Of a stretch of DNA of 46,670 nt, positions 2,896-39,126 are shown piece after piece (positions within the stretch are counted from its first letter, which is position 1; every line of letters starts with the position of its first letter). A program made the position numbers and the translations under genes. The notes under the pieces were generated by a model. That model saw only the letters and a list, made by a program, of their open reading frames with translations, ran no database searches and was not told the DNA's origin. The stretch is from Rubrivivax sp. (lineage in GTDB: Bacteria; Pseudomonadota; Gammaproteobacteria; Burkholderiales; Burkholderiaceae_C). The stretch lies in contig JAEUPF010000070.1 of assembly GCA_016790425.1 (NCBI GenBank), forward strand, positions 1 through 46,670. Reading direction: 5' to 3'.

Positions 2896-3098
2896 GGCAA
2901 GCGCCTTCGCGGCCATCGGCGCAGGCGTTTCGCTGCGCCGCCAGCCCCGCTGCGGCCGCCTCGCGCGCCGGTTGAGGGCGCGGATGACCCTGCCCGCGAG
3001 CTTGGGGGGTTGTCCCGGCGGGCGCCGATTCCGACCATCGCGGTCGCATCCGCCGACGCCGCGCGAGACGGCCGGGCGGCAACCAAGGAGGCTCCTTG

Positions 3099-6000
3099 AT
3101 GATCGCGTTCGCGCCGCTGTCGACGCGGTGGCTGCACGGCGCGCTCGCGACCGCGTTCATGCTCGGGGCATGCGGCGGCGGCGGTGGAGAGGCCGCGCCA
3201 GGCGTCGTCGTCAACCGCGCGCCGCAGGTCACCTCCGCGCCGGCGACGACCGCGTCGGTCGGCGTGCCCTACGTCTACGAGGCCAAGGCCAGCGACCCCG
3301 AGGGCGGTGCGCTCGCCTGGTCGCTCACGCAGGCGCCGGCGGGCATGTCGATCGGCGCTGCCGGTGGCCTCGTCACGTGGACGCCGGCACCCGCGCAGGC
3401 GGGCAACCAGGCGGTGGTGCTGCGCGTCGTCGACCCGGCCGGCCTGGCCGCCACGCAGTCCTTCTCGATCGCGGTGACGGCGGCCAACGCCGCGCCGCGC
3501 ATCACCAACACGCCCCCGGCGACCGCGGTCGTCGGGGCCCTCTATCGCCACCAGATCGAGGCCAGCGACCCCGACGGCGACGCGCTCGCATTCACGCTCG
3601 ACGCGGGGCCCGACGGTCTCGGCCTCGACGGGGCCACCGGCATCCTCGGCTGGACGCCGCGGGCCGACCAGCTGGGCAACCACGCCGTCACGCTTCGCGT
3701 GGCCGATGCACGCGGGCTGTCGGCGACGCAGTCGTTCACGCTGACCGTCGTCGCAGGCCGCGCGCCGCCGCAAATCACCTCGGTGCCGGTGACCACGGCC
3801 CTCGTCGGCGCGCTCTACCGCTACGTCGTGCGCGCCGTCGACCCGAACGGCGACGCCTTCACGCTGTCGCTGCTGCAGGCGCCCGCGGGCATGTCGATCG
3901 ATGCCGCGAGCGGCGCGATCACCTGGACACCGGCCGCGCAGCAGACCGGCGCCCAGGCGGTCACCGTGCGCGCCGCCGACGCCGGCGGGCTCGCCACGAC
4001 GCAGGTCTTCTCGGTCGCCGTCGGCGCGGCCAACGTGGCGCCGCAGATCACCTCCGCGCCCGTGACCGCGGCGACGACCGGCCAGCCCTACAGCTATCTC
4101 GTCGTTGCCGCCGACCCGGACGGCGACCCGCTCGCCTACTCGCTGCTACAAGGCCCCGCCGGCATGACGCTGGACGCCGCGAGCGGCCTGCTCGGCTGGA
4201 CGCCCACGGCGGCGCAGGCGGGCTCGCACGCGGTGAGCGTGCGCGCCGCAGACCCCGCCGGCCTGGCGGCGACGCAGTCCTTCGCGATCGCGGTCGCGCC
4301 GGCCAACGCGGCGCCGCAGATCACCACCGCGGCCGTCACGAGCGCGGTGGCCGGCACGGCCTACCGCTACGACGTCGACGCCCTCGATCCGAACGGCGAC
4401 GTGCTCGCCTACGCGCTCGTGCAGGCGCCGGCCGGCATGACCATCGAGGGCGGCAGCGGCGTCATCGCGTGGGCGCCGTCGGCGGCGCAGGCCGGCACCC
4501 ATGCGGTCGTCGTGCGCGTGGCCGACCCGCGCGGTTTGGCCGCCACGCAGAGCTTCTCGATCATCGTCGCGCTGCCCAACGTCGCTGCGGTCATCACCTC
4601 GTCGCCCGTGCTCGGCGCCAGCGTCGGCGCGCCCTATGTCTACAAGGTCATTGCCGCCGACGCCAACGGCGATGTGCTCGCCTACTCGCTGGCGCAGGCG
4701 CCGGCCGGCATGGGCATCGATTCGAGGAGCGGCGTGATCGCCTGGACGCCTTCGTACGCGCAGGTCGGCCGGCAGGCGGTGACGGTGCGCGTCGTCGACC
4801 CCGGCGGCCTCGCCGCCACGCAGTCGTTCGACGTCGTCGTCGGCGGCACGACGCGCGCCGACATGGCCACGCCCGCCGACACGAAGGCCGACGCCGGCGG
4901 CACGGCGACGATCTCGCTGAACTGGGTGCGCGTGCCGACGGCCGCCGACACGCTGCAGTTCATGCACCTCGTCAGCGGCAGCGGGCAGGTGTGGTCGGTG
5001 GACGATCACTGGACCGCTTCGGCCACCTGGGCTGCCGGCGCCTTCACCGAGGCGCGCACGATCACCGTGCCGGCCGGCCTGCCGGCGGGCACCTACGACA
5101 TCCGCGTCGGGCTTTCGGGCGGCAACCCGTGGGGCAACTTCGCGCTCGCCGCCGGCGCCGGCGTCACCGACCCGGCCGGCGACCACCGCTACCGCGTCGG
5201 CACGCTCACCGTCGAAGGCACCTCCGCCGGCGGCTCGATGCAGATGGCCTGCGCCGACGGTGCCGGCTGGCAGTGCAGCGGCCAGACCGTGCTGCGCACC
5301 GATCGCGGCGTCGCGCTCACGCGCTCGGGCGTGCAGGCCTACGGCCGCTCGACGAGCGACAGGGGCGCGACGAACCCGAACCGCGCCACCGCCTTCGGCC
5401 TCGCGGTGGCCAGCGGCGGTGTGGCCGAGATCCGCGTGCGCAAGGACGGCAACGCGGCGCCGGTCGATGCGGCCGTGCTGCTCAGCGACCTCGACATCTT
5501 CTGGAGCGGCCAGCAGAACCGGCCGCAGATCATCGAAACGTTCAACCCCACCGCCGGCCGCGTCTTCCTCGAAGGCTCCGGCGCGCTGGGCGGGGGCGGA
5601 TTGCCGCCCAGTTCCGACCTCGACTACTACGACTTCGCCAGGCTCGGCACGGCCGGCACGCGCGAGAACTACGCCAACAACCGCTACTTCCCGCGCGCCG
5701 CTGCGCCGCGCTGCGTGCCGGGCGGCTGGTGCTCGACCTACGAGACCACCGGCCTGCAGTTCGGCGGCGGCTCGTGGCGCTCCGGCGGCAGCGACCCCGA
5801 CCGCATCACCGGCATGCGCAACCACGAGGACGGCGACGTGCACGCCGGCAACGGGCTGCCCGACGGCAACGGCAACCCCACGCTGCTGCCCGGCGCCAGC
5901 GGCTTCGGCGTGCCGATGCCGGGGTCCAAGGGCTACCGCACGCTCGACCACTGGAGCTACCGCTACGGCAACCTGGCCTCGTGGTTCACCGAAGACACGG

Positions 6001-6464
6001 TGAGCATCGCCGAGTGGGGCGGCATCAACGAACACAACAAGAACCGCCGCGGCTTCGTTGCCTTCGGCGACACCACCGACCCCGCTGCCGTGCCGGGCAG
6101 CGGCACGGCCACCTACTTCGGCATCGTGCGCTTGCGCTACACGGCCAACGGCAGCAGCGATCCGGCCCTGTACAGCGGCCAGGCCACGGTGGTGGTGAAC
6201 TTCGCCAGCCGCACCGTGACCGTCTCGATCCAGGGCACCCCCGTGGACATGACGGCCACGGCGACGCTGGCCTCCGGCGCCAACGCCAACTACCTGCAAG
6301 GGCCCGCCGCCAGCGGCGGCCTGAGCGGCGGTCTCGGTGGCCGCCTGTTCGGCCCGATGACGGGCGGCGGCGCGGGCAGCGCGCCGGCGGAGATCGGCGG
6401 CGCGTTCTCGCTGACGAACGGCAACGCGGCCGTGGTCGGCGGCTTCATCGCGCGGCTGCAGTAG
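3099..6464 (+). CDS. Secreted lipoprotein with six Ig-like repeats, an unrecognised domain and a TbpB-like C-terminal barrel
   Basis: Predicted surface lipoprotein of 1121 residues. The signal peptide ends in a lipobox LGAC with Cys25 followed by a glycine run. Residues about 39-583 are six repeats of roughly 90 residues. Each opens N-x-AP-x-IT and carries DPNGD or a variant, QAPAGM, WTP and DPxGLAATQSF, the pattern of putative Ig/CADG (He_PIG) domains. After a linker with a beta-rich segment, residues about 706-1121 match the C-terminus of the minus-strand protein at 36254-39082 over nearly their whole length. The last ~50 residues (GGRLFGP...AEIGGAFSL...VGGFIA) resemble the closing strands of the transferrin-binding-protein-B/Slam-substrate barrel. 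AAGGAGG at 3085-3091 lies about 8 nt from the ATG at 3099. An in-frame TTG one codon earlier is less likely. Adhesion or ligand binding at the cell surface is inferred; the ~300-residue domain before the barrel is not recognised. Confidence 0.85.
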   Translation: MIAFAPLSTRWLHGALATAFMLGACGGGGGEAAPGVVVNRAPQVTSAPATTASVGVPYVYEAKASDPEGGALAWSLTQAPAGMSIGAAGGLVTWTPAPAQAGNQAVVLRVVDPAGLAATQSFSIAVTAANAAPRITNTPPATAVVGALYRHQIEASDPDGDALAFTLDAGPDGLGLDGATGILGWTPRADQLGNHAVTLRVADARGLSATQSFTLTVVAGRAPPQITSVPVTTALVGALYRYVVRAVDPNGDAFTLSLLQAPAGMSIDAASGAITWTPAAQQTGAQAVTVRAADAGGLATTQVFSVAVGAANVAPQITSAPVTAATTGQPYSYLVVAADPDGDPLAYSLLQGPAGMTLDAASGLLGWTPTAAQAGSHAVSVRAADPAGLAATQSFAIAVAPANAAPQITTAAVTSAVAGTAYRYDVDALDPNGDVLAYALVQAPAGMTIEGGSGVIAWAPSAAQAGTHAVVVRVADPRGLAATQSFSIIVALPNVAAVITSSPVLGASVGAPYVYKVIAADANGDVLAYSLAQAPAGMGIDSRSGVIAWTPSYAQVGRQAVTVRVVDPGGLAATQSFDVVVGGTTRADMATPADTKADAGGTATISLNWVRVPTAADTLQFMHLVSGSGQVWSVDDHWTASATWAAGAFTEARTITVPAGLPAGTYDIRVGLSGGNPWGNFALAAGAGVTDPAGDHRYRVGTLTVEGTSAGGSMQMACADGAGWQCSGQTVLRTDRGVALTRSGVQAYGRSTSDRGATNPNRATAFGLAVASGGVAEIRVRKDGNAAPVDAAVLLSDLDIFWSGQQNRPQIIETFNPTAGRVFLEGSGALGGGGLPPSSDLDYYDFARLGTAGTRENYANNRYFPRAAAPRCVPGGWCSTYETTGLQFGGGSWRSGGSDPDRITGMRNHEDGDVHAGNGLPDGNGNPTLLPGASGFGVPMPGSKGYRTLDHWSYRYGNLASWFTEDTVSIAEWGGINEHNKNRRGFVAFGDTTDPAAVPGSGTATYFGIVRLRYTANGSSDPALYSGQATVVVNFASRTVTVSIQGTPVDMTATATLASGANANYLQGPAASGGLSGGLGGRLFGPMTGGGAGSAPAEIGGAFSLTNGNAAVVGGFIARLQ
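3213..4848 (+). repeat. Six in-frame ~270-bp repeats encoding Ig-like domains
   Basis: Six consecutive units of about 270-275 bp, each encoding one Ig-like domain, lie head to tail inside the lipoprotein gene. The conserved core of each unit encodes GLAATQSF or a close variant followed by the next N-x-AP start. Units differ in sequence, so they look like an old domain array rather than a recent expansion. Confidence 0.8.
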
Positions 6465-6543
6465 GCCGGCAGGCGGCAGGCGGCGGCGGGCGCTGGCCCT
6501 GCAGGGCGCCGTGCATGCTCCGGGCTAACCCTGATGTGAGGTA

Positions 6544-6564
6544 GGCCGCCGGGCGGCCGTTCTT
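6544..6564 (+). terminator. Weak candidate terminator after the Ig-repeat lipoprotein gene
   Basis: GGCCGCC (6544-6550) can pair with GGCGGCC (6552-6558); in practice this is a 5-6 bp GC stem with a 3-5 nt loop. It is followed by GTTCTTC, a poor U-tract. It lies about 80 bp after the stop codon and 125 bp before the next start. Confidence 0.3.
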
Positions 6565-6690
6565 CACTCCTGCCGGCCAGCGCTCCCGCAAGCGCGGGGT
6601 TGTCCGCCGCGCGGGCGCTTCGTGAACATCCGGTCACGTTTCAACACAAGCCGGCACACGAAGAACGCCGGCCCGTCCGAGGGGCTCCGC

Positions 6691-9600
6691 ATGAAGAAAA
6701 CTCGTCCGCTGCGCACGGCGTTTCTGGCGCTTTCCTCGCTGGCCGCCGCGGTTCTCGTCGCTTCGTGCGGCGGCGGCGGCAGCGAAACCGATCCGGCCGC
6801 CACCGCCGCGGCCGGCAAAGGCGCGGCGGAACAGAAGCGCAAGCTGCCGCCGGGCACGCCGGTGAACGCCGACGCGCATCTGCGCGGCCAGTTCGGCCCG
6901 GTGCAGCCGTGGCCGGTGATCCCGGTGCACGCCGTGCTCACCGCCGACGGCCGCGTGCTCAGCTACGGCACGCGCGAGACCGGCCAGCAGACCGCGTTCT
7001 TCCAGTACGCGGTATGGGACATCGAGGACAACAGCCACACCACCTGGACCAACGGCACCGGCACCGACATCTTCTGCAGCAGCCAGATCCTGCTGCCCGC
7101 CGGCGACCAGGTCTTCATCGCCGGCGGCGACAACTGGACCGGCAGCGGCACCACCAACACCGGCAACAACAACAGCAACCTCTTCGCCACCGCGAACAGC
7201 TCGCTGACGCGGCAGGCCAACATGAACCGGGCGCGCTGGTACTCCAGCTCGACCATGCTGCTCAGCGGCGAGGTCTACATCCAGGGCGGCACCGGCGGCA
7301 CCGACCGCCCCGAGGTGCGGGGCGCCAACGGCGCGTTCCGCCTGCTCGGCGGCGCCGACACCAGCACGCTGGACTTCATGTACCCGCGCAACTTCATCGC
7401 GCCGGACGGCCGCGTCTTCGGCTTCGACAGCGCCGGGCGCATGTACTACGTCAACGCCGGCGGCACCGGCACCTTCACCAGCGCCGGCCAGTTCAGCGCC
7501 ACGGTGGCGGGCAGCGATGCCAGCGCGGCGATGTTCTCGCCCGGCCGCATCCTGCAGTTCGGCGGCAACAGCAACGGCGCCATCGTCATTGACATCACCG
7601 CCGGCGGCACGCCCCGCGTCACCAACACCGCGGCGATGGCGATGCAGCGGCGCCTGGGCACCGCCACCGTCATGGCCGACGGCAAGGTGCTCGCCAGCGG
7701 CGGCAGCCGGGTGTGGAACGAGATGACCGACGTCGTCTATGACGCCGAGATCTGGAACCCCGCCAACGGCCAGTGGACGCGCGCCGCCACCGCCGTGCAG
7801 GCGCGCCTGTATCACAGCGTGGGCCTGCTGCTGCCCGACGCCACGGTGCTGGTCGCCGGCGGCGGCGCCCCGGGGCCGCAGAACAACCTCAACGCCGAGA
7901 TCTACCACCCGCCGTACCTGTTCACCAGCGGCGCCGAGGCGGTGCGGCCGGTGATCGCCACCGCGCCCACCGTTGTCGACCCGGGCAAGACGGTGGCCGT
8001 GAGCTTCACCCATCCGAACGGCCGCCCGGCCAGCCGCGTCACCTTCGCCAAGACCGGCTCGGTCACGCACAGCTGGAACATGGATCAGCGCTTCGTCGAC
8101 CTGCCGTTCACCGCCGGCGCCAACGGCACGCTGGCGGTTCAGATCCCGGCCCGCGCCTCCGACGTGCCCCCGGGCATGTGGATGATGTTCGTCTTCGACG
8201 ACGCCGGCGTTCCTTCGGTGGCGAAGATGGTGCGCGTCAACGTCGCGCCGACGCTCAACGTCGCCGTCGCGCCCACGATCACCGCCCCGGGCAACCAGGG
8301 CGGCAGCGCCGGCACGCCGATCGCCGGGCTGCAGATGGCTGCCAGCGACCCCAACGGCGACGCGCTCGCGTACTCGGCCAGCGGCCTGCCGCCCGGCCTG
8401 GCCATCGATGCGGCCACCGGCTTCATCAGCGGCACGCCGGCCACGCCCGGCACCTACAGCGTCACCGTCGCCGCCAGCGACGGCATCAACAGCGCCAGCA
8501 CCAGCTTCACCTGGACCATCAGCGGCGCCGGCGCGACGCTGACGATCACCCAGGCCACCGTGCCTGCGCCCTCGGTCAGCGGCACCAGCGCCACCTTCAC
8601 CGCCAGCGCCAGCGGCACCAACGTGCGCTACCGCTGGAACTTCGGCGACGGCAGCGCCGTCACCGCCTGGTCGGCCAGCGGGAGTGCCAGCCGCACTTAC
8701 GCCGCGCCCGGCATCTACTTCGTCACCGTCACCGTCACCGACGACAGCGGCGCGCAGGTGTCGCAGACGGTGATGCACCAGGTGTTCCTCACCGCCACGG
8801 CCAATGCGCCCAGCATCAGCGGCCAGATGGCCTACGAGCCGAGGAGCGGCGCGCCGGCGAGGCTGTGGGTGGTGAACCCGGACAACGACAGCGTCTCGGT
8901 CTTCGACACCGCGGCGCGCACGCGCACGGCCGAGATCGCGGTGGGCACCGCGCCGCGCGCGCTGGCCATCGCGCCGGACGGCTCGGTGTGGGTCGCCAAC
9001 CGCGGCAGCGGCACGATCAGCGTCATCAGCCCGGCAACGCTGGCCGTCACGCGCAGCATCAGCATGCCGCGCGGCAGCCTGCCCTACGGCATCGCGATGG
9101 CGCGCACGAGCGGCAGCGCGCTGGTGGCGCTCGAAGGCACCGGCCAGCTGCTGAAGGTCAGCACCAGCACCTTCGCCACCACCGGCACGCTCGGGGTGGG
9201 TGCCAACGCGCGCCACGTGGCCGTGGCCGCTGACGGCAGCACCGCGTTCGTCTCGCGCTTCATCACGCCGCCGCTGGCCGGCGAGGCCACCGCCACCGTC
9301 GACACCGCCTCGGGCGGCGGCCAGGTGGTCGTGGTCAATGCCGGCTCGATGAGCACGGTGCGCACGATCACGCTGGCGCACAGCAACAAGCCCGACGCCG
9401 AGAACCAGGGCCGGGGCATCCCGAACTACCTCGGGGCCGTGGCCATCTCGCCCGACGGCTCGCAGGCGGTGGTGCCGAGCAAGATGGACAACGTCGCGCG
9501 CGGCACGCAGCGCGACGGGCTGGCGCTGAACTTCCAGAACACGGTGCGCGCGATCAGCTCGCGCATCGTGATGAGCAGCCAGAGCGAGGACCTGGCTGCC

Positions 9601-11124
9601 CGCATCGACCACGACAACGCCAGCGTCGCCAGCGCCGCGGCGTACGACCCGCTCGGCGTGTATCTCTTCGTCGCGCTCGAGACGAGCCGCGAAGTGGCCG
9701 TGCTCGACGCGCACCGGCGCAACCAGCTGATGCGCATCGACGTCGGCTTCGCGCCGCAGGGCCTGGTCGTCTCGCCCGACCGCACGACGCTGTACGTGCA
9801 CAACTTCATGGCGCGCACGGTCGGGGTGTTCGACCTCCGGCCGCTCACCGAACAGGCGCGCGCCGCGGCCGACCCGCTGGCGACGATGGCCACGGTGGCG
9901 CTGGACAAGCTTCCCGCCACGGTGCTGCTGGGCAAGCAGCTGTTCTACGACGCACGCGACCCGCGCCTGGCGCGCGACCGCTACATGAGCTGCGCCAGCT
10001 GCCACAACGACGGCGGCCACGACGGCCGCACCTGGGACCTGCGCGCGCAGGGCGAAGGCCTGCGCAACACCATCGCGCTGAAGGGCCGCGCCAGCATGGG
10101 CCACGGCCGCCTGCACTGGAGCAACAACTTCGACGAGCTGCAGGACTTCGAAGGCCAGATCCGCACGCTGGCCGGCGGCAGCGGGCTGATGAGCGACGCG
10201 GCGTACTTCGCCGGCACGCGCGCCCAGCCGCTGGGCGACGCCAAGGCGGGCCTGTCGGCCGACCTCGACGCGCTCGCCGCCTATGTCGCTTCGCTGGACA
10301 GCTTCGACCTCGCGCCGGCGCGGCCGAGCGCGTCGGGCCTGTCGGCCAGCGCCAGCGAGGGCCGGCAGGTCTTCATCGACGCCAACTGCGGCACCAACTG
10401 CCACGCGGGCAGCAACTTCACCCGCAGCGCCGCCGACAACCCGGCGGACATCGGCACGCTGAAGACCACCAGCGGGCAGCGCCTGAACGGCGCGCTCACC
10501 GGCATCGACGTGCCGACGCTGCGCGACGCATGGGCCACCGCGCCGTACCTGCACGACGGGTCGGCGGCCACGCTCGAGGCCGCCATCGGCGCGCACGCCG
10601 GGCACGGCCTGGCCAGCGCCGACATCACGCGCCTGGCCGCGTACCTGCGCGAACTGGGCCGCGACGAGGGCGCGGCACCGACGCGGCCGGCCAGCGGCGC
10701 CGGGCTGCTGGGCAGCTATTTCGGCAACCTCACGCTCGCCGGCACGCCGCTGGTGACGCGCATCGAAGCCGTCAACTTCGACTGGGGCAACAGCCGCCCG
10801 GCCATCGGCGTGCCGGCCGACAACTTCTCGGCGCGCTGGACGGGAACGTTGACGGTGCCCAGCACCGGCACCTATCGCTTCCGCACCAGCAGCGACGGCG
10901 GCGTGCGGCTGTGGGTCAACGGCAGCCAGATCGTCAGCGCCTGGAGCGACAAGGCGGCGACCAACAACACCAGCGGCAACGTCACGCTCACCGCCGGGCA
11001 GCGGGTGCCGCTCACCCTGGAGAACTACGATCGCACCGGCAACGCGACGATGCAGCTGCTGTGGCGGCTGCCGGGAACGAGCGCCTACGTGCCGATACCG
11101 GCGGCGAGCCTGAACACGCAGTGA
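6691..11124 (+). CDS. Lipoprotein fusing a copper radical oxidase to Ig/PKD domains, a YVTN propeller, a di-haem peroxidase-like domain and PA14
   Basis: Predicted exported lipoprotein of 1477 residues (lipobox VASC, Cys26). Residues about 45-500 form a galactose/glyoxal-oxidase module. The thioether cysteine (DIFC, Cys129), the radical tyrosine (RWYSSS, Tyr184), the axial Tyr374-His375 (RLYHS) and the last copper ligand His460 (VTHSWNMDQR) all align with the fungal enzymes. Then come an Ig-like repeat (about 535-615), a PKD domain (about 620-705, with the NFGDGS motif), a YVTN/YncE-like beta-propeller (about 720-1060) and a MauG/cytochrome c peroxidase-like module. The latter has a CASCH haem site (1101-1105) and a second, atypical CGTNCH (CxxxCH, 1233-1238). 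The C-terminus (about 1337-1477) is PA14-like. ATG at 6691 gives a clean signal peptide; an in-frame GTG at 6622 would add 23 residues and bury it. Likely role: periplasmic or surface oxidation of an alcohol or aldehyde, with the haem module handling electrons or H2O2 (inference). Confidence 0.88.
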   Translation: MKKTRPLRTAFLALSSLAAAVLVASCGGGGSETDPAATAAAGKGAAEQKRKLPPGTPVNADAHLRGQFGPVQPWPVIPVHAVLTADGRVLSYGTRETGQQTAFFQYAVWDIEDNSHTTWTNGTGTDIFCSSQILLPAGDQVFIAGGDNWTGSGTTNTGNNNSNLFATANSSLTRQANMNRARWYSSSTMLLSGEVYIQGGTGGTDRPEVRGANGAFRLLGGADTSTLDFMYPRNFIAPDGRVFGFDSAGRMYYVNAGGTGTFTSAGQFSATVAGSDASAAMFSPGRILQFGGNSNGAIVIDITAGGTPRVTNTAAMAMQRRLGTATVMADGKVLASGGSRVWNEMTDVVYDAEIWNPANGQWTRAATAVQARLYHSVGLLLPDATVLVAGGGAPGPQNNLNAEIYHPPYLFTSGAEAVRPVIATAPTVVDPGKTVAVSFTHPNGRPASRVTFAKTGSVTHSWNMDQRFVDLPFTAGANGTLAVQIPARASDVPPGMWMMFVFDDAGVPSVAKMVRVNVAPTLNVAVAPTITAPGNQGGSAGTPIAGLQMAASDPNGDALAYSASGLPPGLAIDAATGFISGTPATPGTYSVTVAASDGINSASTSFTWTISGAGATLTITQATVPAPSVSGTSATFTASASGTNVRYRWNFGDGSAVTAWSASGSASRTYAAPGIYFVTVTVTDDSGAQVSQTVMHQVFLTATANAPSISGQMAYEPRSGAPARLWVVNPDNDSVSVFDTAARTRTAEIAVGTAPRALAIAPDGSVWVANRGSGTISVISPATLAVTRSISMPRGSLPYGIAMARTSGSALVALEGTGQLLKVSTSTFATTGTLGVGANARHVAVAADGSTAFVSRFITPPLAGEATATVDTASGGGQVVVVNAGSMSTVRTITLAHSNKPDAENQGRGIPNYLGAVAISPDGSQAVVPSKMDNVARGTQRDGLALNFQNTVRAISSRIVMSSQSEDLAARIDHDNASVASAAAYDPLGVYLFVALETSREVAVLDAHRRNQLMRIDVGFAPQGLVVSPDRTTLYVHNFMARTVGVFDLRPLTEQARAAADPLATMATVALDKLPATVLLGKQLFYDARDPRLARDRYMSCASCHNDGGHDGRTWDLRAQGEGLRNTIALKGRASMGHGRLHWSNNFDELQDFEGQIRTLAGGSGLMSDAAYFAGTRAQPLGDAKAGLSADLDALAAYVASLDSFDLAPARPSASGLSASASEGRQVFIDANCGTNCHAGSNFTRSAADNPADIGTLKTTSGQRLNGALTGIDVPTLRDAWATAPYLHDGSAATLEAAIGAHAGHGLASADITRLAAYLRELGRDEGAAPTRPASGAGLLGSYFGNLTLAGTPLVTRIEAVNFDWGNSRPAIGVPADNFSARWTGTLTVPSTGTYRFRTSSDGGVRLWVNGSQIVSAWSDKAATNNTSGNVTLTAGQRVPLTLENYDRTGNATMQLLWRLPGTSAYVPIPAASLNTQ

Positions 11125-11197
11125 CGGCGCGCGCCGCCGCGGCACCCGCCGCAGCGGTTGCGTGGCATCGCAGGCGCAGGCGGCACGGCCGCCGCGC

Positions 11198-11968
11198 TCA
11201 CTTCGCTCCGGCTGCCTCCAGCAGCTTCACCATCGCCGCGTAGCCGCGGCCGCGCGCCAGCGCCAGCGGCGTGCGGCCTTCGCGATCGGCGAGCTTCGTG
11301 CTCGCGCCGGCGTCGAGCAGCGCCTTCAGCGTGGCCTGGTGGCGAGCACCGCCGTCGCCGAGCACGATCGACTCGATCACCGCGGTCCAGTGCAGGTTGT
11401 TGACGTGGTCCAGCGGCGCGCCGGCGCCGATGAGCTGGCGCACGACGCCGTCGTGCCCCAGGTGCGCCGCGGCGATCAGCGCCGTGCCGTCGTAGCGGCT
11501 GGTGACGAGCCGGGCGCTGGCACCCGCGGCCAGCAGGATCGCCAGCGTCTGCTCGTCGTCGGCGACGGCAGCGATGGTCACCGCGTCGTAGCGGCCGCTG
11601 TCCAGCGCCGCGTGGTCGGCGCCGGCGGCGAGCAGCGCCTTCACCGCCGCGCGCTGCTTGGCGAACGTGGCCACGTGCAGCGGCGTGCGGCCGTTCCCGT
11701 CGCGCGCTTCGAGCGCGGCCTTGTCGCCGCCCTTTGCGGCGGCAGCGCGCGCGATGGCCGCCGCGTCGCCCTGCCAGGCCGCGGCGTGCAGGCCGCGGTA
11801 GGCCGCCGCCTCGGCCGCTGATGGCGGCACCTGGGCGCGCGCCGCTTCGGGGGCGGCCAGGCCGGCGAGCGCGACGACCGCCGCCAGCGCGAACGGCGCG
11901 AACGGCGCAATCGGCGCAATCGGCGCTATCGCCGCGAACGGCGCACGCGACGCGGCTCGCGTCCTCAC
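11198..11968 (-). CDS. Secreted ankyrin-repeat protein
   Basis: 256 residues beginning with a signal peptide whose hydrophobic core is an alanine/proline/isoleucine/phenylalanine repeat, with a probable cleavage site after ARA. The rest is about five ankyrin repeats, seen as NGRTPLHVA, VKALLAAGAD, YDGTALIAAAHLGHDGVVRQLI, LKALLDAGAS and EGRTPLALARGRGYAAMVKLL. The start is a GTG at 11968 that overlaps the TGA of the upstream HbpS-like gene in GTGA, a sign of translational coupling. Such periplasmic ankyrin proteins usually mediate protein-protein contacts, and some accompany oxidative-stress enzymes. Here the partner is presumably the co-transcribed HbpS-like protein; this is inference. Confidence 0.85.
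   Translation of the reverse strand: MRTRAASRAPFAAIAPIAPIAPFAPFALAAVVALAGLAAPEAARAQVPPSAAEAAAYRGLHAAAWQGDAAAIARAAAAKGGDKAALEARDGNGRTPLHVATFAKQRAAVKALLAAGADHAALDSGRYDAVTIAAVADDEQTLAILLAAGASARLVTSRYDGTALIAAAHLGHDGVVRQLIGAGAPLDHVNNLHWTAVIESIVLGDGGARHQATLKALLDAGASTKLADREGRTPLALARGRGYAAMVKLLEAAGAK
11889..11942 (-). repeat. Six 9-bp units inside the signal peptide of the ankyrin gene
   Basis: Six consecutive 9-bp units (plus-strand forms GCGAACGGC, GCAATCGGC, GCTATCGCC) encode the hydrophobic core of the signal peptide as Ala-Pro/Ala-Ile/Phe triplets. A change in copy number would keep the frame and alter only the length of the hydrophobic core. Confidence 0.75.
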
Positions 11969-12471
11969 TTCAGCAGGTCCTTCACCTTGTCCAGCGCCGC
12001 CACGGCGCACTGCTCGTCGAGGTGGCCGCCGGGCGCGCCGCCGACGCCGACGGCGCCGATGACCTCGTTGCCCACGCGGATGGGCACGCCGCCGCCCAGC
12101 AGCAGGAAGCCGGGCATGTAGACCAGGTTGGCCGCGGCCGGGTTCTTCTGCGCGTTCTCCAGCATCACCAGCGTGCTGGCCTTCGCCGAAGCCGACGTGT
12201 AGGCCTTCGCCTGCGCCGACGAAAGCGTGTGCGGGCCGGCGTTGTCGGCGCGCTGCAGGGCGCGCAACTGGCCGGCGCGGTCCACCACCGCGGCGGCCAC
12301 GTTGTGCCCGTTGGCCAGGCAGGCGGCCACGGTGGCAGCGGCGATCTGGTTGGCGAGGTCCAGCGAGATGTTGCGCTCGGTCCGCACCGGCGTCGATTGC
12401 GCCTGCACGGCCGCGGCGGCGGCAACGGCCACGGCGGCAAGCGCCAGGCGGGAGAGGAGGGTGTTCTTCAT
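11965..12471 (-). CDS. Secreted HbpS/GlcG-like (DUF336) protein
   Basis: 168 residues. A signal peptide ends near VQAQS, and the mature part has the whole DUF336 fold: the early LDLANQIAAATVAAC helix, GHNVAAAVVDRAGQLRAL, the AKAYTSASAK helix, and the GFLLLGGGVPI...GAVGVGG hairpin. Family members include Streptomyces HbpS, an exported haem-binding protein that modulates a neighbouring sensor kinase, and GlcG. The gene lies directly downstream of a kinase/regulator pair on the same strand and is coupled by a 4-bp overlap to the ankyrin gene. Haem or cofactor binding is inferred from the family; no haem ligand can be assigned from sequence alone. The 175-bp gap upstream carries its own candidate promoter elements. 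Confidence 0.88.
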   Translation of the reverse strand: MKNTLLSRLALAAVAVAAAAAVQAQSTPVRTERNISLDLANQIAAATVAACLANGHNVAAAVVDRAGQLRALQRADNAGPHTLSSAQAKAYTSASAKASTLVMLENAQKNPAAANLVYMPGFLLLGGGVPIRVGNEVIGAVGVGGAPGGHLDEQCAVAALDKVKDLLK

Positions 12472-12525
12472 CGCGTTCGTGCTCCTGTGCGTGGCCGCTG
12501 CAAGGGCGCAACAGCCGTGCCCGGC

Positions 12526-12590
12526 ACTCTAGGCAGGCGCTGCTGCGCCGGCCATTCGCGCGGCTACCCGCTCCACAGCGTAGTTCTACG
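12526..12590 (-). promoter_or_regulatory. Candidate promoter and regulator site before the HbpS-like gene
   Basis: CGTAG-TT-CTACG, an inverted repeat with perfect 5-bp arms, lies at 12579-12590. A TAGAGT box that could act as -10 lies at 12526-12531 on the minus strand. The repeat would be centred about 64 bp upstream of the expected start site, a normal place for a FixJ/LuxR-type activator. The regulator gene next door makes it a plausible target, but there is only this one copy to judge from. Confidence 0.35.
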
Positions 12591-12646
12591 GAGCGTCTCC
12601 CGAGGGTCGCCGGGCCTCGGTGTTCGCCGCCGCGGCGGGCGCGCCC

Positions 12647-13321
12647 TCAGGCCGGGCCCGAAGCGCCCTCGGCCAGGTCGGCGTAGCGCCGCACGAGCTG
12701 CGCCAGCGACTCCACCGCGAGCTTGGCGAACAGGTGCGCGCGGTGCGTCTCCACCGTGCGCGGGCTCAGGCCGAGCGCGCGGCCGACTTCCTTGTTCGTG
12801 AGGCCGGCGACGATGAGCCCGAGCACTTCGCGCTCACGCTCGGACAGCCGGCCGTAGCGCTCGCGCGCCTCGCGGTCGCCGCGCTGGCGTTGCCGCTGGC
12901 GCGCATGCTGGCGCACGGCCTGCTGCAACGCGTCGAGCAGCGCCTGGTCATCGACCGGCTTCTCGAGGAACTCGGCGGCGCCGGCCTTGAAGGCGCGCCG
13001 GCACATGTCCACGGTGCCGTGGCCGGTGAGCATGATCACCGGCTGGTCGACGCCTTCGGCCAGCAGGCGCTCCAGCACCATCAGCCCCGACAACCCCGGC
13101 ATGCGCACGTCCAGCACGATGGCGCCGATGGCATCGCGGTCGAAGCCAGCGAGGAAGCTATGCGGCTCGGCCCACGGCGCCACGCGCAGGCCGACGGTGC
13201 CCACCAGCAGCGCCAGGCTCTCGCGCACCGCCGCGTCGTCGTCGACGAGGTTCACCAGCGGCGAGGTGCTCGCCGCGGCTGCGCTGGCGACCCCGCCAGC
13301 CCCGGCACTAGCGGGCGGCAT
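12647..13321 (-). CDS. FixJ/NarL-type response regulator
   Basis: 224 residues. The N-terminal receiver domain has the acidic pair DDD near residue 28, phosphoacceptor Asp71 in VLDVRMPG, the threonine of MLTGHG, and the lysine of FLEKPVDD. The C-terminal LuxR-type helix-turn-helix reads LSEREREVLGLIVAGLTNKE followed by SPRTVETHRAHLFAKL. The start at 13321 overlaps the end of the kinase gene by 14 bp, so the pair is one transcription unit. A Ser/Ala-rich N-terminal extension of about 20 residues precedes the receiver. The likely partner is the kinase encoded immediately upstream. Confidence 0.93.
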   Translation of the reverse strand: MPPASAGAGGVASAAAASTSPLVNLVDDDAAVRESLALLVGTVGLRVAPWAEPHSFLAGFDRDAIGAIVLDVRMPGLSGLMVLERLLAEGVDQPVIMLTGHGTVDMCRRAFKAGAAEFLEKPVDDQALLDALQQAVRQHARQRQRQRGDREARERYGRLSEREREVLGLIVAGLTNKEVGRALGLSPRTVETHRAHLFAKLAVESLAQLVRRYADLAEGASGPA

Positions 13322-14888
13322 CGGCCGTCTCCGAACCGCCGGCGCGCGGCAGCTCCAGGCGGAAGACGGCGCCGCGCCCGCCGGGGGCGTTGCCGCCGCT
13401 CAGGCGGCCGCCCATGCCGCCGGCCAGCGTCTCGCACAAGCTGAGGCCGAGGCCGAGGCCGCCCTCGCGCGTGGTGAAGAACGGCTCGAACAGGCGCGGC
13501 AGCGCCTCCGGCGCGATGCCCGGGCCGCTGTCGCGCACGGTCACCACGCCGCGCGCCCCTTCCGCCGCGGCGACGAGCTCGAGCCGGCGTTCGGCAGCCG
13601 GTACCTGCTGCAGCGCCTGCGCGGCATTGCCGATGAGGTTGTGGACGATCTGCTCCAGCGCCACCGCGTCGGCGGACACGCGCAGATCAGGCGGGTCGCA
13701 GCGCACGCTCGCGCGCACCGCGGCGCGGTCGAGCTCGGGCTGGCGCAGGTCGAGCGCTGCCTCCAGCAAGGTCGCCAGCGGCACCGTTGCCTGCGGCCCG
13801 CCGCTGCCACCGGCGGGTTCCACCAGCCGGCGCAACCGTGCCAGCACATCGGCGGCGCGGCGCGCCTGCTGTGCCGCCTGCGTCATGGCGTCGCGCGCCT
13901 GCGGCAAGGCCTCGGTGCCTTCGTCGGCGAGCAGCCGCCGTGCGGCCGCGGTGCTCGCCACCACCGCCGTCAGCGGCTGGTTCAGCTCATGCGCGATGCC
14001 GGCGGCCAGTTCGCCCATGGCGTTCAGCCGGCTCACCTGGCCCAGCCGCAGCAGTTCGCGCGTGCGCCGCTGCTCGGCGCGCTGGCGCAGCCAGGCGGCG
14101 GCGGTGCCGACGGCCAGCGCGCTGAGCACCGACCACGCCAGCATCCAGGCCCACGGCCACTGTGCCCAGGGCAGGCGTTCGCCGACGCGCACCTCGAACG
14201 GCTGGCTCTCGGCCGCCAGCGCCTTGGCGAAGGCCAGGCGTGGCCCGGCCAGCCAGGCCGATGCGCCGGCCGCGCTCGCCGGGGCCGCGGCGCCACCGGC
14301 CGTGTCGGCTGCATCGGCCGCATCGGCAGACCTGCCCGGCTGCAGCACGAAGCGCTGCCCGCCGTGCGCCAGCGCGACGGCCGCCGCCGCAGGCGCCGCC
14401 ACCGGCCCCTCGCCGACCGGGGGCAACGCCGCAAGGTCGATCTGCAACGCGTAGCTCGAGGGCTCGGCCGCTCGCACCAGCCAATAGCGGCCGCGCGGCA
14501 ACTCCACCGGACCGAGCGCCGGGCGCGCCGCGCCGCGCGAGGCCGTCTCGGCGGCCGCCAGGGCTGCCGCCTCGGCGACGGTCACCCCGGACCAAGGCTC
14601 GCTGCCGGTGCGGCGCAGCACCCGCAGCACCTGCGGGTAGAGCGCGGTCAGCCGCTGCTCGGGCGCGTCGCGTCCCTCGAGGGCCGGCTGCAGCAGTGCC
14701 AGCGTGGCCAGGATCGCGTCATGCTGCACGACGCGCTGGCTGAGCACGCGGTGCACGATGCGCGCGTCGGTCTCGAAGCGCGCGCGCTGCTCGTCGTAGG
14801 CGCGCAGCGCGATGAGCAGCGAGCCGCCGGCGGCGAGCAGGGCGCCGGCCAGCAGCCAGCCGATCCATCCGAAGCCCGCAGGACGCAT
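13308..14888 (-). CDS. Membrane sensor histidine kinase
   Basis: 526 residues. A transmembrane helix at about 6-27 and a second at about 245-265 bracket a ~215-residue periplasmic sensor region with no recognised domain. Its second half holds an Ala/Asp-rich low-complexity stretch. The kinase core has the H-box GELAAGIAHELNQPL with His300, an N-box HNLIGNAAQAL, and the G boxes DSGPGIAPE and GLGLGLSLCE. The HELNQPL form is typical of the FixL/DctB-like subgroup that pairs with FixJ-type regulators, as here. ATG at 14888 starts directly before the first membrane helix; the open frame extends upstream but is Arg/Gly/Ala-rich there and not credible. It diverges from the TldD-like gene across 128 bp. 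Confidence 0.92.
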   Translation of the reverse strand: MRPAGFGWIGWLLAGALLAAGGSLLIALRAYDEQRARFETDARIVHRVLSQRVVQHDAILATLALLQPALEGRDAPEQRLTALYPQVLRVLRRTGSEPWSGVTVAEAAALAAAETASRGAARPALGPVELPRGRYWLVRAAEPSSYALQIDLAALPPVGEGPVAAPAAAAVALAHGGQRFVLQPGRSADAADAADTAGGAAAPASAAGASAWLAGPRLAFAKALAAESQPFEVRVGERLPWAQWPWAWMLAWSVLSALAVGTAAAWLRQRAEQRRTRELLRLGQVSRLNAMGELAAGIAHELNQPLTAVVASTAAARRLLADEGTEALPQARDAMTQAAQQARRAADVLARLRRLVEPAGGSGGPQATVPLATLLEAALDLRQPELDRAAVRASVRCDPPDLRVSADAVALEQIVHNLIGNAAQALQQVPAAERRLELVAAAEGARGVVTVRDSGPGIAPEALPRLFEPFFTTREGGLGLGLSLCETLAGGMGGRLSGGNAPGGRGAVFRLELPRAGGSETADAAR

Positions 14889-15016
14889 GCGTCGATTCTT
14901 GCACTCGCGCCCCGCGGCGCCGCGCGGGCATTGGCGCGGGGCTGCATGCCGGCGCGGCGAATCCCCGTAGCATCCGCCGACCGTTCCCGCCCGGGCGGCC
15001 ACCCGCCGCCACCGCC

Positions 15017-16363
15017 ATGAGCACCAGCTACCTCGAGACGCGCCGCCACGAGCTGCGCAAGACCCGGCTCGCAATGGTCGACGGCAACCTCGCGGCCAAC
15101 CTGCGCAGCGTGCAAGGCGGCGTCAGCGCCCGCGCCTACCGCGAAGGCTACTGGGGCTTCGCCTCGGCGCCGCAGGACGACGCCGCCGCCCTCCAGCGCG
15201 TGCAGCGCGAGGCGCGCGACAACGCCGGCGCGATGGCCGTCTTCGGCGGCCGGCGCACGTTGGCGCTGCCCGGCGACATCCACGTCGGCGAACAGGCCGC
15301 GCACGGCGGGCCCGAGTTGCCCGCGCAGCAGACCATCGAGCGCCTGGCGGCGCTGCACGCGCACTGCATGAAGGCCTACGCCGGCCTGCGCAGCACGCGG
15401 CTGATGGCCACCGACGAGCACCACATCAAGCAGCTCGAGAGCGCCGACGGCGGCCGTGCGCTGGCACGCATCCAGCGCGCCGCCGCCTACGTGACGCTGG
15501 TGATGGAAGATGCCGAAGGCCGGCCGCTGGAGCTGACCGAGATCGTCTCGGGCATCGGCAGCCTGGCCGACATCGACTGGTCGCTGGCTGCGTTCCGCCC
15601 CAGGCTCGATGCGCTGTACGAGCACCTGCTGGCCAAGCGCCAGGCGGTGCCGGCGCAGGGCGGCCTGCGCCGCGTGGTGATGGCGCCAGAACTGGCCGGC
15701 ATGCTGGCGCACGAGGCGATGGGCCACCCGTGCGAGGCCGACTCGGTGCTCTCCGGCGCCGTCACCGCCGACCTCGCCGGCAAGCCGGTGGCGAGCGAAC
15801 TGGTGACGATGGCGGACCTGGCGCACCACCACGAGGGCCGCGAGCTGATGGTGCCGGTGTACGCCGACGACGAAGGCACGCCGGCGCGCGACGTGACGAT
15901 GATCGAGCGCGGCGTGCTGCGCGAGTTCATGCACAGCCGCGAGACGGCGGCGCGCATGGGCCTGGCGCCCAGCGGCAACGCGCGCGCCTACGCGCCCGAC
16001 GACGAGCCGCTGGTGCGCATGCGCAACACCGCCATCCTGCCGGGCACTTCGACGATGCAGCAGATGATCGAAGGCGTCGACGACGGCTACCTGCTCCTGA
16101 AGACGAGCAACGGCCAGGCCGACTCGACGACCGAGTTCATGTTCGGCATCAACCTCGCCTACGAGATCAAGGGCGGCAAGATCGGCCGCGCCGTGCGTGA
16201 CACCACCGTCTCGGGCTCGGCGCTGAAGGTGCTGCAAAGCGTCGATGCCGTGGGCAACGAGATGGAGTGGAGCTGCAACGGCTACTGCGGCAAGAAGCAG
16301 CCGATGGTCGTTTCGGTGGGCGGCCCGGCGCTGCGCGCGCTGGCGCACGTCGGCGGGCAATGA
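15017..16363 (+). CDS. TldD-family zinc metalloprotease subunit
   Basis: 448 residues, somewhat shorter than E. coli TldD. The zinc-protease signature HEAMGH (His232, Glu233, His237) is intact in the context MLAHEAMGHPCE, and the C-terminal conserved block (TSNGQADSTTEFMFG, KGGKIGRAVRDTTVSG) is present. TldD with TldE forms a heterodimeric protease that cleaves unfolded peptides, with known roles in microcin B17 maturation and CcdA turnover. The metal ligands sit in this subunit. The TldE-like partner starts 25 bp downstream. No RiPP precursor is visible nearby, so a general peptide-degrading role is the default. Confidence 0.93.
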   Translation: MSTSYLETRRHELRKTRLAMVDGNLAANLRSVQGGVSARAYREGYWGFASAPQDDAAALQRVQREARDNAGAMAVFGGRRTLALPGDIHVGEQAAHGGPELPAQQTIERLAALHAHCMKAYAGLRSTRLMATDEHHIKQLESADGGRALARIQRAAAYVTLVMEDAEGRPLELTEIVSGIGSLADIDWSLAAFRPRLDALYEHLLAKRQAVPAQGGLRRVVMAPELAGMLAHEAMGHPCEADSVLSGAVTADLAGKPVASELVTMADLAHHHEGRELMVPVYADDEGTPARDVTMIERGVLREFMHSRETAARMGLAPSGNARAYAPDDEPLVRMRNTAILPGTSTMQQMIEGVDDGYLLLKTSNGQADSTTEFMFGINLAYEIKGGKIGRAVRDTTVSGSALKVLQSVDAVGNEMEWSCNGYCGKKQPMVVSVGGPALRALAHVGGQ

Positions 16364-36253: not shown

Positions 36254-39082
36254 CTACTGCTTGCGGGCGATGAACCCGCCCACGGCCAGCGCGTTGCTGC
36301 CGGCACTGAAGAGCTGGAACGTGCCGCCGATCTCGGCCGGCCCGGTGCCGCTGCCGCCACCGGCCACCGGGCCGAACAGGCGGCCGCCGACGCCGCCGCT
36401 CAGGCTGCCGGCCGACGCCACGCCGGTGAGGTGGTTCGCGTTCCCGCCCGCGCCCAGCGTCGGGCTGGCGCTGAAGACCAGCGGCACCGAAGCGCCGCTG
36501 CCGTCGTTGCGCACCGTGTTCTGGATCGACACCGAGACCGCGCGCGTCGTGAAGTTCACCGTCACCGTCACCGAGCCGACGAACGGCACCGGATCGTCGG
36601 TGCCGTTGGCCGCGTACCGGCCGTGCACCACGCCGACGTAGCTGGCCCCGCCGCTCACGGGCACCGCGGCCGGATCGGTGGTGTCGCCGAACGTGACGAC
36701 GCCGCGCCGGTTCTTGTTGTGCTCGTCGACGCCGCCCCACTCGACGATGTTCACCGTGTCCTGCGTGAACCACGAGGCGACGTTGGCGTAGCGGTAGTTC
36801 CACAGGTTCAGCGTGCGGTACCCCTTCGAACCGGGCACCGGCACGCCAAAGCCGCTGCCGCCGGGCAGCCAGGTGGGGTTGCCATTGGCGTCGGGCAGGC
36901 CGTTGCCCGCGTGCACGTCGCCGTCTTCGTGGTAGCGCGAGGCGGCGAGCATGTCGGCGTCGACGCCGCCGCCGCGCCAGCCACCCGTGGCGTACTGCGG
37001 CCCCGAGGTCTCGGCGGTGGCGCACCAGCCGCCGGGCACGCAGCGCGGCGGCTCGGGGCGCGGGAAATAGCGGTTGGCGGCGTAGTTCGCGCGCGTTGCG
37101 CCTGCGGCGCCGAGCGTGGCGAAGTTGTAGTAGCCCAGGTCCGAGCTCGGCGGCAGCGCGCCGAAGGTGAGCGCACCGGTCCCACCCAGCCACACGCGCC
37201 CGGCGGTCGGGTTGAACGTCTCGATGATCTGCGGCCGATCGAGCTGGCCGCTCCAGTGGATCGCGAGGTTGGCGAGCAGCACGGCCACCGAGTCGGGTGC
37301 CGCGTTGGCGTCCTTGCGCACGCGGATCTCGGCGGTGCCGCCGCCGGCCGGCGCGAAGCCGGTGGCGTTGGAGACGTTCGGGTTCGAGGGGCTCAGGTCG
37401 CTCGTCGAACGACCGTACGCCTGCACGCCCGAGCGCGTCAGCGCAATGCCGTTGTCGGTGCGCAGGATCGCCTCGCCGCTGCATTGCCAGCCGCTGCCGT
37501 CGGCGCACGACATCGTCATCGGGCCGGCCGGCGGCGGCGGCGCGGCGCTGACGGTGATCGAGAACGATTGCGTCGCGGCGAGCCCGCCGGGGTCGGCCAC
37601 GCGCACCGTGACGGCTTGCGCGCCGACCTGCGCGGCCGCCGGCGTCCAGGCGATCAGCCCGCTGCCGCCATTGATCGTCATGCCGGCGGGCGCCTGCGTC
37701 AGCGCGTACGTCAGCACGTCGCCGTTCGGGTCGCTGGCGTTGACGTCGTAGGCGTAGGCGGCGCCCACCGTCGCCGTCGTCGGTGGCTGCGTGGTGATCT
37801 GCGGCGCCGCGTTGCCGGCGGGCGCCACGGCGATCGTGAAGGCCTGCGTCGCGGCAAGCCCGCCGGGGTCGGCCACGCGCACCGTCACCGCCTGGCTGCC
37901 CGTTTGCGCCGACGAAGGCGTCCACGCGATGAGACCCGTCGACGCATTGATCGCCATGCCGGCAGGCGCCTGGGTCAGCGACCAGGTCAGCACGTCGCCG
38001 TTGGGGTCGGTCGCGTTCACGTCGTAGCTGTATGCCGCGCCGACCGAGGCCGTCGTGACCGGCGATGTGGTGATCTGCGGCGCTGCGTTGGCGGCGGCGA
38101 CGGTGATGGTGAAGCTCTGCGTTGCTGCCAGGCCGCCGGGGTCGGCCACGCGCACCGTGACCGCTTGCGCGCCGGCTTGCGCGGCCGTCGGCGTCCAGGC
38201 GATCAGGCCGTTCGCCGCGTTGATCGTCATGCCGCTGGGCGCCTGCGTCAGCGAGTACGCGAGCGTGTCGCCGTTGGGGTCGCTCGCATTCACGTCGTAG
38301 CTGTAGGCCGCGCCGACCGCGGCTGTCGTGATCGGCGTCGTCGTGATCTGCGGCGCTGCGTTGGCGGCGGCGACGGTGATGGTGAAGCTCTGCGTCGCTG
38401 CCAGGCCGCCGGGGTCGGCCACGCGCACGCTCACCGCCTGCGAACCGGCGGTCGCCGGCGTCCAAGCGATCAGACCCGTGGTCGCGTTGATCGTCATGCC
38501 CGCCGGCGCTTGGGTCAGCGAAAACGCCAGCACGTCGCCATTGGGGTCGGTTGCATCGACGTCGTAGGCGTAGGCACTGCCCACCGTGGCGCTGGTCGGC
38601 GGCGCGGTGGTGATCGTCGGTGCCTGATTGCCGGTGCCGGCGAGCACGGTGATCGTCACCGTCGTCACCGCCGAGAAGGCGAACCGTGCGTCGTAGGCGC
38701 GGTAGGTGAAGCTGACGGTGCCGCTGTAGCCCGCCGGTGCGCGGTAGGTGAAGCTGCCGTTCGAGGAGGAGGAGATCGTGCCGACGGCCGGCCGCGACAG
38801 GCGCCACAGGAAGATCGCGTCGCCGTTGGCGTCGGTGTCGTTGGCCAACACCCCGGGCGCGGCCACGCTCAGCGTTCCGCCCTGGGCGACGGTATAGCTG
38901 TCGGGACGGGCCACCGGGGCCACGTTGCCGCCTTGCGCCAGCGCCGGGAGCGGCAGCGCACCGAGGAGCCCGGCCGCCGCGAACAGCCCCGCAGCGACCG
39001 CGCGCCGCGCGGCGGTCATGAGCGATGCGAATCCGCCGGCCCTGTGGACCCCGGCCCCGCTCCAGGCTGCCCGACTCTTCAT
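36254..39082 (-). CDS. Secreted Ig-repeat protein with TbpB-like C-terminal barrel (paralogue of the 3099-6464 product)
   Basis: 942 residues with a cleavable signal (LPLPALAQ) but no lipobox. A cadherin-like/VCBS-type domain comes first (VAPVARPDSYTVAQGG...GVLANDTDANGD). Four Ig-like repeats of about 90 residues follow, each with DPNGD, QAP(A/S)GM, WTP and DPGGLAATQ. The last ~420 residues, from MTMSCADGSGWQCSGEAIL, align almost end to end with the C-terminus of the lipoprotein at 3099-6464. Shared blocks are SGVQAYGRSTSD, RPQIIETFNPTAGRV, HEDGDVHAGNGLPD, EWGG(I/V)(N/D)EHNKNRRG and the closing GGRLFGP...AEIGG. GGGAGGG (39090-39096) 7 nt upstream supports the ATG at 39082. It looks like a surface or secreted binding protein; the substrate is unknown. 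Confidence 0.87.
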   Translation of the reverse strand: MKSRAAWSGAGVHRAGGFASLMTAARRAVAAGLFAAAGLLGALPLPALAQGGNVAPVARPDSYTVAQGGTLSVAAPGVLANDTDANGDAIFLWRLSRPAVGTISSSSNGSFTYRAPAGYSGTVSFTYRAYDARFAFSAVTTVTITVLAGTGNQAPTITTAPPTSATVGSAYAYDVDATDPNGDVLAFSLTQAPAGMTINATTGLIAWTPATAGSQAVSVRVADPGGLAATQSFTITVAAANAAPQITTTPITTAAVGAAYSYDVNASDPNGDTLAYSLTQAPSGMTINAANGLIAWTPTAAQAGAQAVTVRVADPGGLAATQSFTITVAAANAAPQITTSPVTTASVGAAYSYDVNATDPNGDVLTWSLTQAPAGMAINASTGLIAWTPSSAQTGSQAVTVRVADPGGLAATQAFTIAVAPAGNAAPQITTQPPTTATVGAAYAYDVNASDPNGDVLTYALTQAPAGMTINGGSGLIAWTPAAAQVGAQAVTVRVADPGGLAATQSFSITVSAAPPPPAGPMTMSCADGSGWQCSGEAILRTDNGIALTRSGVQAYGRSTSDLSPSNPNVSNATGFAPAGGGTAEIRVRKDANAAPDSVAVLLANLAIHWSGQLDRPQIIETFNPTAGRVWLGGTGALTFGALPPSSDLGYYNFATLGAAGATRANYAANRYFPRPEPPRCVPGGWCATAETSGPQYATGGWRGGGVDADMLAASRYHEDGDVHAGNGLPDANGNPTWLPGGSGFGVPVPGSKGYRTLNLWNYRYANVASWFTQDTVNIVEWGGVDEHNKNRRGVVTFGDTTDPAAVPVSGGASYVGVVHGRYAANGTDDPVPFVGSVTVTVNFTTRAVSVSIQNTVRNDGSGASVPLVFSASPTLGAGGNANHLTGVASAGSLSGGVGGRLFGPVAGGGSGTGPAEIGGTFQLFSAGSNALAVGGFIARKQ
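37545..38630 (-). repeat. Four in-frame ~270-bp repeats encoding Ig-like domains
   Basis: Four consecutive units of about 265-275 bp encode near-identical Ig-like domains. The block for DPGGLAATQSFTITVAAANAAPQ recurs with very few base changes between the second and third units. The units are much more alike than those of the paralogue at 3213-4848, so this array looks recently homogenised or expanded. Confidence 0.85.
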
Positions 39083-39126
39083 GATCGGTCCCTCCCGCGC
39101 GCAGGATCCTATGCGCGTGCCAGAGG

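Follow-up and report, generated by a model that had tools for sequence, protein, structure and literature searches.

Copper radical oxidases (CROs) are commonly assayed with added horseradish peroxidase, and how they are switched on in nature is largely open. Horseradish peroxidase is found among the reagents in PMC11267884. In the account of PMC9770985, the resting form of a CRO turns active once a Tyr radical forms, and in the Colletotrichum Perox-AlcOx pair a haem peroxidase activates the fungal CRO, with a change in the electron paramagnetic resonance signal occurring without substrate. For Streptomyces lividans GlxA, PMC4736821 reports that maturation under copper limitation requires a haem peroxidase, DtpA, as well as Sco, and that DtpA consumes H2O2 from GlxA. 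Both natural cases, Perox-AlcOx and DtpA-GlxA, employ separate haem peroxidases. Here, we describe a protein of Rubrivivax sp. in which a CRO head and a propeller/di-haem tail form one chain. It is encoded in a 46,670-nucleotide stretch (GCA_016790425.1, contig JAEUPF010000070.1, positions 1 to 46,670; hereafter the window), at 6691-11124 (+). The CRO, the YVTN propeller and the di-haem peroxidase are each of a known kind, and no account of their union was found in the open literature, most subscription papers and all bioRxiv preprints lying outside the search.

Compared with the described systems, the fusion resembles Perox-AlcOx in that a CRO would be activated by a haem peroxidase partner (PMC9770985). 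Perox-AlcOx consists of two separate secreted fungal proteins, whereas the fusion is a single chain with a di-haem c-type module. It likewise resembles the GlxA/DtpA/Sco system, a bacterial CRO with haem peroxidase and Sco partners (PMC4736821), which differs in having separate genes and a DyP-type (dye-decolourising) peroxidase. The beta/gamma chains of hydrazine synthase (PDB 5c2v) share the propeller and di-haem parts with the fusion but lack a CRO. A hydrazine-synthase-like propeller/di-haem unit occurs here in a quite different protein. Among the MauG, MbnH and bacterial cytochrome c peroxidase (CCP) di-haem enzymes, the axial residue is Met in CCP and Tyr in MauG; the fusion tail probably has a His there, and the window copy has a second haem motif of the CX3CH form. 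The nearest fusion encountered in print, the Burkholderia pseudomallei AA5 alcohol oxidase-CE3 protein, is also a bacterial CRO fused to another domain, this being an inactive esterase and not a redox module.

The window protein is translated from a single open reading frame (ORF) of 1477 residues with no internal stop. The single-polypeptide fusion of the original prediction was thereby borne out, with a CRO and a di-haem module confirmed in one chain. The domain order is a probable lipoprotein signal, the CRO, a He_PIG Ig-like domain, a PKD domain, a YVTN propeller, the di-haem module and a PA14 domain, all features lying on the + strand. A signal peptide with a lipobox, VAS-Cys26 ahead of GGGG (6691..6768), was recognized by eye from the translation and DNA, and the export signal is probably of the lipoprotein type. 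The CRO head, a kelch propeller plus E-set domain (residues 65-516; 6883..8238), has the AA5 fold: PF09118 (1.2e-22) and Kelch_1 exceeded their Pfam cut-offs, PF07250 (4.9e-9) fell slightly under its own, and the PDB match to 9g8h covered residues 65-516 (4.4e-45). Alignment to 9g8h located Cys129, the partner in the Cys-Tyr cofactor (7075..7077), Tyr184, the cross-linked/radical Tyr (7240..7242), and the copper ligands Tyr374-His375 (7810..7815) and His460 (8068..8070). These are the five site residues named in the original prediction, and they match those of solved galactose oxidases. They are kept, in the order given, in 96, 97, 97, 97 and 97 of 97 aligned CRO domains, a set that includes duplicate copies and in which the single absent Cys falls past a contig end. 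The site is that of O2-using enzymes, and copper, the Cys-Tyr cross-link and alcohol or aldehyde oxidation with release of H2O2 are predicted. The stacking Trp of galactose oxidase, Trp290, is not present in all AA5 members. It is absent from the window CRO, which has GGTGG at this place, and Trp stands there in 30 of the 97 CRO domains (residue column 202). Against the GlxA equivalog model NF052501 the window protein scored 133 bits, the cut-off being 800.

The rest of the chain comprises the He_PIG domain (residues 527-611; 8269..8523; PF05345, 6.2e-17), the PKD domain (622-694; 8554..8772; PF00801, 1.2e-15), the seven-bladed YVTN propeller (about 704-1055; 8800..9855), the di-haem module (about 1076-1325; 9916..10665) and the PA14 domain (1338-1468; 10702..11094; PF07691, 1.2e-26), in this order. 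The CCP/MauG-like module with two haem motifs noted at first inspection was confirmed. A CCP_MauG domain (37.7 bits, cut-off 25.6), a peroxidase-type fold supported in structure comparison and two motifs were found; the module is not that of a standard CCP, with CX3CH in place of the second of the two CXXCH motifs of bacterial CCPs and probably His in place of Met. The di-haem alignment (A4) contained the window and 86 of 87 reference tails (the second copy in L135 being left out), in 78 CRO-type and 9 CRO-less rows. The CRO-type class was set by tail similarity and includes four rows with the CRO out of view at a contig end (L072, L088, L126 and L153) and one, L154, with most of its CRO in another frame. 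The Cys, Cys and His of the first haem motif, CASCH (1101-1105; 9991..10005), are invariant in A4. The column of Gln1156 (10156..10158) holds Gln in 78 of 78 CRO-type tails and Asp in all 9 CRO-less tails; we propose Gln1156, matched by motif, as the counterpart of MauG Gln103 and CCP Gln104. The second motif of the window copy, CGTNCH (1233-1238; 10387..10404; TGC GGC ACC AAC TGC CAC), is of the CX3CH form seen in 2 of 80 complete modules from the loci of the best-80 scan described below (L059 and L061 share it), the other 78 having CXXCH. His1302 (10594..10596; His in 77 of 78 rows) occupies the position that the axial Met has at the electron-transfer haem of CCPs. It sits 14 residues past the HDG His with no gap, a spacing that Met shows in the four CCP chains compared; HMMER aligned it with the CCP Met in two of these chains and left a gap in the other two. 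The axial Met is therefore probably replaced by His, and the second haem is probably bis-His. No distal His was seen in the tail sequence at the CCP position.

We have compared predicted models of the propeller and di-haem parts with solved structures. A 17-row input left most of the di-haem part below a predicted local distance difference test score (pLDDT) of 50, and an 87-row input gave a better model. In VIA-align, hydrazine synthase 5c2v chains ranked first for both parts, the di-haem model matching best with 5c2v_C, the gamma subunit. Foldseek placed seven CCP/MacA chains above 5c2v_C for the di-haem model, with TM-scores of about 0.5-0.6. As modelled, the di-haem tail is closest in fold to hydrazine synthase gamma and is no ordinary cytochrome c peroxidase. 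Scores against the NCBIfam models for MauG (TTQ_mauG, 43.2 bits vs. 443.85), MbnH (TIGR04039, 53.4 vs. 362.85) and hydrazine synthase beta-gamma (NF052342, 55.3 vs. 1250) all lay below the cut-offs.

The distribution of the fusion was investigated by using the propeller/di-haem half to scan 84,980 species genomes. From 579 relatives the best 80 by tail similarity were taken, a choice that favors CRO-type tails; CRO-less tails are among the weaker matches. CRO and tail are read in a single open frame in 77 of these 80, although L061, L084 and L124 show a partial CRO at the contig stop and the tail of L074 is split over two frames; in the remaining three (L072, L088 and L126) the frame leaves the contig before any CRO could appear. 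Split fusion genes were also seen in L052 and L154, as in L074, and their pieces were not joined. Pooling the best-80 loci with a further set of regions and removing copies gave 87 distinct fusions with a long CRO, the window included. Two Rubrivivax relatives assembled separately (L059 and L060) carry the same fusion with 85-88% identity in head and tail, and a closed plasmid of Comamonadaceae bacterium OTU4NAUVB1, a pure culture, encodes a fusion of 1737 residues annotated as "discoidin domain-containing protein." An assembly join or frameshift as the source was ruled out by the unbroken frame, the relatives and the plasmid, and the fusion is therefore neither an assembly join nor a one-off. 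Separate genes for the two halves in relatives, or a frameshift or join between about 8800 and 9900, had been named beforehand as grounds for rejecting the fusion; we looked for both, and with 77 of 80 relatives in one frame neither was borne out.

Named carriers include many Burkholderiales, Steroidobacter, Leucothrix, Prosthecobacter, Brevifollis and a Polyangiaceae metagenome-assembled genome (MAG). Many carriers are MAGs, and the "Planctomycetota" contig L074 is possibly mis-binned. Judged from these sequences, the fusion is kept across phyla. Its distribution is patchy, both other same-genus genomes in the family sample lacking it. Of 250 genomes of the same family, the CRO was matched in 29 (threshold 1e-10) and the tail likewise in 29 (threshold 1e-20); both counts include weak and partial matches. 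In the phylum sample, the tail was found at 1e-30 in 3 of 398 genomes, namely the window's own, G318 (with a CRO) and G122 (without), and in the class sample 10 of 274 genomes had a CRO match at 1e-30. In Rivibacter subsaxonicus DSM 19570 (L079, ORF 4869-12533, same as L044), a 2554-residue fusion holds the Ig-PKD-propeller-di-haem-PA14 unit twice in tandem; the units contain a 2480-base identical stretch, which could be a recent internal duplication or an assembly effect.

Head and tail have for the most part been inherited together. Four groups of the CRO tree, placed on the tail tree, required 4 label changes against a minimum of 3 and a shuffled mean of 45.0, and none of 200 shuffles reached a value that low. 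In the most unequal fusion pairs, the CRO shows about 30% identity and the tail 63-72%, the head having evolved faster. Recent head swapping on one tail was suspected from the pair L049/L064 (CRO 31%, tail 72%) and dropped, as the tail tree retains the CRO groups and both head and tail of L049 point to one and the same nearest relative. On the CRO tree, assigning "fused" and "alone" takes 6 changes, of which starred branches force 5; row L190, labelled fused with no tail found in its cut-off frame, affects this count. The tail-less CROs therefore interleave with the fused groups, and either loss of the tail or repeated joining would be compatible with the tree. The converse proteins, tails without a CRO, were found nine times in same-family genomes (L143-L151), behind a different N-terminal region that is propeller-like by eye. 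In L144, the sole one scanned, Pfam matched Ig, laminin-G-like, PKD and ricin-like domains and found nothing within the first 430 residues. One locus (L041, 6118-15918) has three CRO genes in a row: a bare CRO, a CRO with two PA14 matches and a full fusion.

Neighboring genes were counted at 91 fusion loci with profiles built from clustered neighbor genes; related loci are not independent, and the counts carry no correction for relatedness. A SCO1/SenC gene lies within 1.2 kb of the fusion in 44 of the 91 loci (same strand in 41), a small cytochrome c gene adjoins it in 25, and a joined MbnP-MbnH gene adjoins it in 6, all from Verrucomicrobiota (6 of 11 Verrucomicrobiota fusions). At least 1.2 kb was available on both sides in 73 of the 91 loci, several loci having short flanks. 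For comparison, none of these three genes was found within 2.5 kb of 19 tail-less CROs (from 9 genomes, two in L041 being left out) or of the 9 CRO-less tails. Clustering alone, on 86 relatives and part of the window, had given 38 loci for Sco and 11 for cytochrome c, and the profile counts are preferred. All four Sco genes tried in Pfam were confirmed as SCO1-SenC, and both MbnP-MbnH genes tried (L120 and L136) showed MbnP together with CCP_MauG; 51 of 52 Sco matches, copies included, have the CxxxC motif with a later His. The small cytochromes are named by their CXXCH motif; of two tried in Pfam, one gave a weak Cytochrome_CBB3 match below the cut-off and the other no match. The Sco gene is upstream of the fusion in 15 loci and downstream in 29, and the linkage has therefore been kept or regained through rearrangement. 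On the OTU4NAUVB1 plasmid, the next gene after the fusion gene, which overlaps it, encodes a small cytochrome c ("hypothetical protein") and is followed 13 bases later by a "SCO family protein." Both the cross-phylum retention and the Sco and cytochrome c neighbors back the idea that CRO and haem module would work together.

MbnP would have a role with copper. PMC3621798 presented MbnP and MbnH as a conserved pair whose part in copper homeostasis was unknown and stated, in 2013, that no data tied close MbnP homologues to copper; the title of PDB entry 6e1c speaks of a MauG-like protein associated with microbial copper homeostasis. In L120, L123, L127, L133, L136 and L138, the gene directly upstream of the fusion, mostly overlapping or almost touching it, codes for about 570-610 residues in which MbnP and an MbnH-like di-haem peroxidase are combined.

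Based on these data, we tentatively favor, at a little under even confidence, an oxidase with a haem redox partner built into its chain, the tail activating the copper site and reducing surplus peroxide. With a CRO and a haem partner in one chain, and Sco adjoining in about half of the loci, the tail may draw on H2O2 made by the head both to activate this head and to protect it. The fusion would be exported and probably lipid-anchored, and would receive copper from Sco or, in some Verrucomicrobiota, from MbnP-MbnH, after which the Cys-Tyr cofactor would form. The head would then oxidize an aldehyde or primary alcohol, which might belong to a PA14-bound glycan, yielding H2O2 that could react with the di-haem module at its first haem. 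The oxidizing equivalents would convert the copper site from its resting Cu(II)-Tyr form into the active Cu(II)-Tyr radical form and aid maturation. Surplus peroxide would be reduced by electrons from the linked cytochrome c via the second, probably bis-His, haem, the cytochrome thus feeding or draining electrons. Gene linkage suggests the copper supply and the partnership, and we infer in which direction the electrons flow. The original interpretation is supported in part; removal by the fusion of the peroxide that it makes, or onward transfer of electrons, would be possible. Activation or maturation of the copper radical site, a use not named there, has the closest experimental precedents. 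A widely kept fusion with copper-chaperone and cytochrome c neighbors beside many copies suggests that haem partnership of CROs recurs. Its halves are fixed at 1:1 and could be disabled one at a time, which makes CRO activation testable, and it points toward CRO biocatalysts that need no added peroxidase.

Several points weigh against this proposal. Haem, copper and activity of the fusion are all predicted from sequence. The structural model covers the propeller and the di-haem module, and in the 87-row version it is weaker, with blocks of pLDDT 60-75, around module residues 51-90, where the first haem pocket is in part situated. A counterpart of the peroxidatic CCP Glu (Glu114) was not identified in the tail sequence. 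Neither Sco nor MbnP-MbnH is in view at 41 of the 91 fusion loci (28 of 73 among those with 1.2 kb flanks), and neither was found in the window. The window's own genome has four SCO1/SenC matches and CcmH elsewhere; the Sco profile picks up three of these four matches, and some Sco genes may therefore be missed. CROs without a tail and tails without a CRO both exist, and neither half therefore strictly needs the other. In the GlxA precedent, DtpA raised GlxA activity no more than horseradish peroxidase did, with no strong interaction reported, and the authors suggest that DtpA acts on Sco-bound copper and not on GlxA itself (PMC4736821).

A simpler role for the tail would be peroxide disposal only, with H2O2 from the head reduced to water by cytochrome c electrons and no part taken in copper radical formation. 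We consider this rather unlikely, given that the tail apparently lacks the axial Met of CCPs, that the CCP Glu114 was not found, and that the 19 CROs examined manage without any tail. MauG draws electrons from its partner protein by radical hopping. A further reading, of similarly low probability, would be a self-activating CRO, whose di-haem tail would take electrons from the head of the same chain in this manner, forming the Tyr-Cys cofactor and the radical, and could pass substrate electrons to a dedicated cytochrome c, wiring the copper site to respiration and not only to O2.

Electron export could also be the main function, substrate electrons leaving the copper site via the di-haem tail to a small cytochrome c and the respiratory chain, with O2 not the main acceptor. 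The cytochrome c genes linked to 25 of 91 fusions and the probably bis-His second haem, which fits plain electron transfer, agree with such a dehydrogenase mode, as do the cytochrome domains that some oxidoreductases employ as built-in redox mediators (PMC6472588). However, the CRO site is of the O2-using type and 66 of 91 loci have no linked cytochrome c, and we regard this mode as very improbable. Two separate catalysts on one scaffold, the propeller/di-haem half having its own chemistry like its hydrazine synthase kin and the CRO head being only co-targeted, would account for hydrazine synthase being the best VIA-align match of both tail parts and for the nine tails found behind another N-terminal region. 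This seems improbable as well, since the long joint inheritance of head and tail and the class-specific Gln/Asp in the di-haem module indicate coupling.

Some further features of these loci were observed. Two more large window proteins bear He_PIG Ig repeats (3096-6464 and 36254-39154), and the first has a Cys-Gly-rich, lipoprotein-like start. Downstream of the fusion, at 11198-15074 (-), lie genes for an ankyrin-repeat protein, an HbpS-like protein, a LuxR-type response regulator and a histidine kinase; by eye, an ankyrin-like gene also adjoins the fusion in L059, L060 and L064. On the OTU4NAUVB1 plasmid, protocatechuate 3,4-dioxygenase genes (L198, 11861-13226) lie about 1.5 kb from the fusion operon, which might hint at aromatic substrates.
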